A stretch of DNA of 14,626 nt, taken from Deltaproteobacteria bacterium. GTDB lineage: Bacteria > Desulfobacterota > Desulfobacteria > Desulfobacterales > Desulfobacteraceae. The stretch covers positions 1 through 14,626 of the forward strand of contig JAFCZY010000112.1 of assembly GCA_019314105.1 (NCBI GenBank), in the 5' to 3' direction. The notes under the pieces were generated by a model, which searched no databases, had not been told where the DNA came from, and was given only the letters and a program-made list of their open reading frames with translations. Positions 5,455 to 6,885 of the stretch are shown piece after piece; the stretch's first letter is position 1; every line of letters starts with the position of its first letter. Both the position numbers and the translations under genes were made by a program.

Positions 5455-6885
5455 TGGAAATTAAAGCAGAAGAAATAAGCCAGATAATAAAAGACCAGAT
5501 CAAAGGGTTTGATGTGGAAGTCGACCTGAGCGAAACAGGTGTTGTTCTTTCTGCGGGTGACGGTATTGCTCGCGTATATGGTCTTGAAAAAGTAAAAGCA
5601 ATGGAGCTGGTTGAGTTCCCCGGCGGGATTTTAGGCCTTGCATTGAATCTTGAATCCGATAATGTTGGTGTTGCCATCCTCGGTGATGATAAAGAAATTA
5701 AAGAGGGTGACATCGTTAAAAGAACTGAACGTATTGCATCAGTTCCTGTTGGTGAGGAGCTTTTAGGGCGTGTTGTGACCACAACCGGAGAACCGGTTGA
5801 CGGTAAAGGCCCTATTAACGCTAAAACTGTTATGAACGTGGAACTGGTTGCTCCCGGTGTTATTGCCAGACAATCCGTTCATGAGCCTTGCTACACCGGT
5901 GCAAAAGCGGTTGACGGCATGACCCCTGTTGGCAGAGGCCAGCGTGAGCTTATCATTGGTGACCGTCAGATCGGAAAAACAGCTATTGCCGTTGATGCCA
6001 TCATTGCACAAAAAGAAACCGATATGAAATGCATCTATGTTGCCTGCGGTCAGAAAAAATCAACGGTTGCCCAGGTTGTTGCAGCTCTTGAAGAGCATGG
6101 CGCAATGGAATATACAACTGTTGTTATTGCATCTGCTTCTGAAGCTGCAGCCATGCAGTATCTTGCTCCCTATGCAGGTTGTGCCATGGGTGAATACTTC
6201 AGGGATAAGGGCGAGCATGCCCTGATTATCTATGATGATCTTTCAAAACAGGCTGCCGCTTATCGCCAGGTATCTTTGCTTCTCAGACGTCCTCCGGGAC
6301 GAGAAGCTTTCCCTGGTGATATTTTCTACAACCATTCAAGACTTCTTGAAAGATCTGCAAAACTCAGTGATGTTGAGGGCGCAGGATCTTTGACTGCACT
6401 TCCGATTATTGAAACCCAGGAAGGGGATGTGTCTGCATTTATTCCAACCAATGTTATTTCCATTACAGATGGTCAAATTTTTCTTGATAAGGACCTTTTC
6501 TTTGCCGGTATCCGTCCTGCTTGATCTTGCTCAGTTCCGTGAGCTGGAAGCATTTGCTGCATTTGGTTCTGACCTTGACGAAGCAACCCAGAAACAGCTG
6601 ACCCGTGGTGAAAGACTGGTTGAACTAATGAAACAACCCCAGTTCAAACCGCTTCCAATGGAAAAAATAGTTACTGTATTTTATGCAGGAACCAAAGGAT
6701 ACATTGATAAATATCCACGAGAAGCTGTTGCAAAATATGAAGAAGGTCTTTATCCGTTTGTTGAAAATCGCTTTCCTGAAATTTTCTCGGGCCTGAAGGA
6801 AAAAGAAGAGATCACAGAAGAGATTGAAAACAAATTGAAACAATGCCTTGAAGCTTATGACGAAGAATTCAAAGATACCATATAA
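5454..6885 (+). pseudogene. atpA: F-type ATP synthase subunit alpha, disrupted by an internal deletion/frameshift
   Basis: Two conserved halves of AtpA lie in different frames. Codons 1-356 (5454-6521) run through the P-loop GDRQIGKT (169-176) and end at LFFAGIRPA, followed by TGA (6522-6524). The second half resumes at 6520 in another frame with [20 protein letters not shown] and continues 121 codons to the TAA at 6883-6885. From the family pattern, about 27 residues (like INVG.[16 protein letters not shown].LR) should sit between them. An 83-bp loss would restore frame and give about 504 residues, the normal size. The missing piece carries the arginine finger needed for catalysis, so neither fragment nor a frameshift product could work as a normal alpha subunit. 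The rest is well conserved, so the lesion is recent or is an assembly error. Confidence 0.9.

Follow-up and report, generated by a model that had tools for sequence, protein, structure and literature searches.

An interrupted atpA gene in a fragmented Desulfobacula-like genome very probably reflects a local assembly error

The gene for the alpha subunit of the F-type ATP synthase (atpA, 5454-6885) is split at positions 6520-6524 of the window, the whole stretch of 14,626 nucleotides that was analysed, and we consider that this break very probably arose through a local error in the assembly of a fragmented draft. An assembly error is favoured because an identical intact protein exists elsewhere, the gene is otherwise unmarked, no backup is visible and further core genes are broken in the same draft. 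The window is one contig (C99) of a 2.7-Mb genome of 478 contigs (completeness 90.07, contamination 1.36), which, judging from its fragmentation, is probably a metagenome bin. The organism is probably a Desulfobacula-like sulfate reducer, sulfate reduction being deduced from the genus. In the proposed error the contig would skip 83 bp, its two flanks having been joined presumably without read support and with no N run left, and the organism would most likely carry an ordinary AtpA of 504 residues.

The first atpA frame (5454-6521) encodes 356 aa, the last of which are LFFAGIRPA, and is followed by a TGA at 6522-6524; the second opens at 6520 with LDLAQFREL and continues for 121 aa to a stop at 6883-6885. 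Translation thus bears out an earlier note on this DNA, which had described a first frame ending in LFFAGIRPA before a TGA at 6522, with AtpA sequence resuming out of frame at 6520. Instead of a single open frame of approximately 504 codons, there are 356 and 121 codons in two frames. The nucleotide-binding core is present, as the first piece alone scores far above the family cut-off of 484.45 bits (Table 1), but the SVSRVGG arginine-finger block is absent from the window contig, and positions 358-384 (27) of the 503-position NCBIfam atpA model TIGR00962 are left uncovered between the two pieces. Local alignment of an 80-base slice with G006, which of the 37 other genomes searched is closest in atpA DNA (92% over 330 bp), gave a single clean 83-bp gap, with no further internal indel. 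The earlier note had put the loss at 83 bp and about 27 residues including SVSRVGG, with about 504 residues on restoration, and had proposed sizing the gap against close relatives; these figures proved exact, with 83 bp missing relative to G006, 27 residues between the two pieces in the intact public protein P0001, and 356 + 27 + 121 = 504 residues expected for the unbroken protein. Regarding its suggestion that the assembly had collapsed or dropped a segment, we infer a dropped segment, in view of the further conserved-gene breaks in the draft. Collapse of a long repeat was rejected as the cause, because the flanks in the relatives have only CT in common at the joint and therefore contain no long direct repeat.

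Table 1. Features of the atp region in the window
Feature	Positions	Strand	Evidence
Subunit b' (atpF2), F-type ATP synthase	3870..4301	+	NCBIfam NF005607, 69.9 bits, below its cut-off of 131
Subunit b (atpF), F-type ATP synthase	4295..4903	+	NCBIfam NF005606, 78 bits, below its cut-off of 137
Subunit delta (atpH)	4903..5454	+	TIGR01145, 120.6 bits, above its cut-off
atpA first piece, residues 1-356 of F1 alpha (N-terminal and nucleotide-binding parts), to premature TGA	5454..6524	+	TIGR00962, 608.4 bits, profile 2-357; equals P0001 residues 1-356
Junction, 83 bp absent relative to G006	6519..6522	+	Alignments; ends have only CT (2 bp) in common, judged from the relative
atpA second piece, residues 384-504 (C-terminal part), other frame	6520..6885	+	TIGR00962, 119.9 bits, profile 385-501; equals P0001 residues 384-504
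Subunit gamma (atpG), intact	6945..7838	+	TIGR01146, 283 bits; identical to P0121, 297/297
Subunit beta (atpD), intact	7880..9292	+	TIGR01039, 810.2 bits
Subunit epsilon (atpC)	9258..9719	+	NF009980, 167.7 bits, above its cut-off, stretch 19-152

The lost 27 residues include the arginine finger (SVSRVGG), an identification that rests on the literature. Arg365 of P0001 corresponds to position 376 when an offset of 11 residues is added, as taken from end positions against chain 3oaa_A and not from a residue-by-residue alignment; 3oaa we take to be the E. coli enzyme. The available text of PMC3268026 names alpha-Arg376 as the arginine finger of the E. coli enzyme and describes mutants of this residue as strongly impaired; alpha-R376Q alone leaves an ATPase activity of 0.025 units, against 42.0.

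The surroundings of the gene are those of an atp operon. The window contig carries rodA and the F1 genes of the F-type ATP synthase, in the order b', b, delta, alpha, gamma, beta and epsilon, and subunits a and c lie on a separate contig of the bin (C186), so that the other parts of a normal ATP synthase are present. The family match of atpC starts only at residue 19, and its true start is probably inside the ORF given in Table 1. The spacer between rodA and b' (window 3706-3720) is about 111 bp shorter than that of G006; the spacers of the relatives range from 150 to 846 bp.

The allele is intact in other assemblies. P0001, a public AtpA of 504 aa, is identical to the two pieces over 356/356 and 121/121 residues, that is, over all 477 residues that are present, and has the 27 in between. 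It is found in seven contigs (JGI, ENA), the longest of 25,993 bases, compared with 14,626 for the window contig. The longest contig with P0121, the protein identical to the AtpG of the window, also has 25,993 bases, and the next AtpG is 92% identical; given this shared length, the intact atpA and the identical atpG probably lie side by side on a single contig. A sister strain may be the source of P0001. Compared with AtpA of the Desulfobacula type (TIGR00962), the window has the same operon context and both flanking pieces, but the 27 residues with the arginine finger are absent and the frame is broken, a lesion found in no other sequence examined. Residues 357-383 are kept in all 109 loci from other genomes (116 were compared, seven of them from the bin itself), L111 having a one-residue gap there, and none of the 109 has the same deletion; L008-L036 and L037-L116 may count some genomes twice. 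The region is aligned in one piece in 107 of these loci, with SVSRVGG exact in 103, and is covered by pieces in L022 and L103. The atpA of L022 (relative G013) aligns in three pieces, which suggests small frameshifts in the G013 draft too. At the protein level, all 27 residues are found in 119 of the 120 best AtpA matches out of 8000, the exception (P0098) being a 369-aa record named partial; SVSRVGG occurs in all 120, and none of these best 120 is the truncated form encoded in the window.

As for a backup, a profile search of the 90%-complete bin with PF00006 matched only AtpA, AtpD, a FliI-like gene and two Rho-like genes. The matches other than AtpA and AtpD were considered as ATP synthase and rejected, their translations reading as FliI and two Rho genes. 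The earlier note had called for a search of the rest of the genome for a second atpA or a Na+-type ATPase operon; in the visible part of the bin, PF00006 revealed no second atpA, N-ATPase or V-ATPase. Neither was a second copy of the missing atpA segment found on the other contigs of the visible bin, where 26 of the 81 sampled contigs read as N and a copy on such contigs could be missed. The proposal of a dead alpha gene compensated by another ATP synthase is accordingly not upheld, as the bin yielded no other catalytic subunit and an intact protein of identical sequence is known from other assemblies. Lacking alpha, the organism would have no F1. Sulfate reducers are thought to depend on ATP from ion gradients, according to the available text of PMC4215793, which also mentions transposon insertions in AtpA and AtpD in a mutant library of Desulfovibrio alaskensis G20. 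The main text of PMC10102598, checked for the essentiality of atp genes in Desulfovibrio vulgaris, does not mention ATPase, ATP synthase or atp.

Other genes of the draft are broken as well. A second, short Rho-like gene (rho2; L005:1171-2166, contig C175) lacks 75 bp in frame, with 25 residues gone at TRM/PRKIFG that are kept by 119/119 other proteins among the best 120 listed and by 15/15 same-genus relatives searched. No intact identical twin of rho2 is among the best 120 listed, a result that neither helps nor excludes an artefact; the only identical protein listed is the damaged form, on a contig equal in size to C175, and 312 of 330 residues are shared by the intact protein with the best score. 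The argument from an intact copy elsewhere is therefore limited to atpA, and a real lesion is less well excluded in rho2 than in atpA. Three further breaks are found in genes whose names come from a reading of their translations and not from a family search: a khpA-like KH-domain gene (L234:5470-5600, C122) lacks 128 bp, with about 2 bp common at the joint; a lon-like gene (L169:5990-8334, C175) has gained 2 bp, which breaks the frame in its C-terminal part; and a secretin-like gene (L253:1640-1740, C142) lacks 26 bp between short A-runs. The pieces of four broken ORFs are still 85-98% identical to the relative.

Several other differences were observed along the bin. On C122, 264 bp are missing relative to G006 (L234:6172-6188) in a stretch that spans a possible gene, and the flanks look as if they belonged to tandem genes that resemble each other. 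At L229:5005-5083 and L254:5356-5469 there are two palindromic insertions of similar sequence (GGGGTCAGGCTTTCCTTATTG and its complement), which are absent from the relative and look like small dispersed hairpin elements. The end of C7 (L135:4904-5051) matches a stretch of the relative that was already matched just before, as if the contig end had been duplicated. Removal of N runs from scaffolds was considered as a source of the join; one run of 35 N survives among the 55 bin contigs with letters, so N runs were not removed throughout.

In order to estimate the reliability of the draft, the window and 80 further contigs (the 55 with letters totalling 442,887 bases) were compared with 60 stretches of G006 (833,112 bases), the alignments amounting to 105,001 columns. 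Contigs C99, C175, C125 and C190 were picked for earlier matches; C122, with khpA, and C142, with the secretin-like gene, were drawn by number. Between collinear blocks, the bin shows 12 losses and three gains of at least 60 bp; one further pair is non-collinear. For nine of the 12 losses, including that in the shorter khpA, no stop-free frame of at least 120 codons crosses the lost stretch in G006, a check that looked for spanning frames and not for whole genes inside the lost stretches; the excess of losses over gains may be partly natural. When ORFs were first screened from 65 aa upwards, with stops counted anywhere, 5 of 82 from G006 were flagged as broken in the bin and, conversely, 11 of 95 from the bin as broken in G006. 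Each of the 11 reverse flags is a stop, in several cases within a short ORF, and that of L147 is a start extension. When the analysis was restricted to ORFs of at least 150 aa, ignoring stops in the first 60 or the last 30 residues, 4 of 69 G006 ORFs were broken in the bin (atpA, lon, rho2 and the secretin-like gene; khpA is too short for this count) and none of 75 in reverse. The asymmetry between bin and G006 is thus seen only once short ORFs and near-end stops are set aside, and the proportion of 4/69 is biased, since atpA and rho2 were known before sampling and lon adjoins rho2. As a rough control, rodA and atp gene copies lying wholly within 66 relative loci were examined at matches of at least 55% identity, and 2 of 232 were flagged as broken: the AtpA in pieces of L022, and a stop in the 58%-identical AtpH of L063.

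Three other explanations have to be weighed against an assembly error. That the sampled strain has truly lost the 83 bp is in our judgement unlikely; atpA would then have a recent loss-of-function allele among cells that for the most part have the gene intact. The gap is clean with about 2 bp common to its flanks, as in some natural deletions, and the insertions in AtpA and AtpD mentioned for D. alaskensis G20 in the available text of PMC4215793 imply that the loss need not kill at once; however, what remains of atpA matches an intact protein without a difference, the bin yielded no other ATP synthase, a consensus assembly would be expected to display the majority allele, and other housekeeping genes of the bin are broken too. 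Slightly less likely again is a reading that this deletion could entail, in which the F1 alpha gene is dead in some cells and these subsist on substrate-level phosphorylation or cross-feeding, next to kin with the intact gene.

A decaying genome, such as that of a host-bound lineage, with many recent pseudogenes including atpA, lon, khpA and rho2, seems to us very improbable. Of the 69 ORFs compared at 150 aa or longer, 65 are unbroken, the pieces of the broken genes retain the high identity to the relative given above, and an intact twin of AtpA exists. The breaks in several core genes would fit decay, as would a bin of 2.7 Mb against 2.8-5.9 Mb in same-genus genomes at least 87% complete, but a relative of similar size (G011, 2.8 Mb) has atpA unbroken across the site (locus L009). 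Hardly any probability can be given to recoding, in which a ribosomal frameshift would join the pieces into a shortened working alpha subunit: although a shift within the overlap of the two frames (6520-6524) would connect them, the product would still lack the 27 residues including SVSRVGG, the block common to all of the best 120 AtpA proteins, and the single substitution alpha-R376Q is enough to reduce the ATPase of E. coli to the trace activity cited above from PMC3268026.

The favoured reading, a local assembly error, has parallels in published drafts. The local assembly errors in metagenome bins treated in the available text of Chen et al. 2020 (PMC7111523) are of a similar kind, in that consensus joins within a fragmented draft leave protein genes incomplete or wrong; those errors were recognised by missing read support, whereas the break in atpA is known from the assembled sequence alone. 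Many pseudogenes stem from assembly, according to the available text of Cooley and Wright 2024 (PMC11017572), and in both settings conserved genes are interrupted in one assembly and kept in nearly identical genomes. The cases in that text are frameshifts and internal stops, whereas the lesion in atpA is mainly an 83-bp gap.

If the deletion were true, a respiring anaerobe would be able to live without an F1 alpha subunit, which would surprise specialists. As it stands, the finding is mainly a warning: taken at face value, the draft would suggest a sulfate reducer without ATP synthase and with broken Lon and KhpA.
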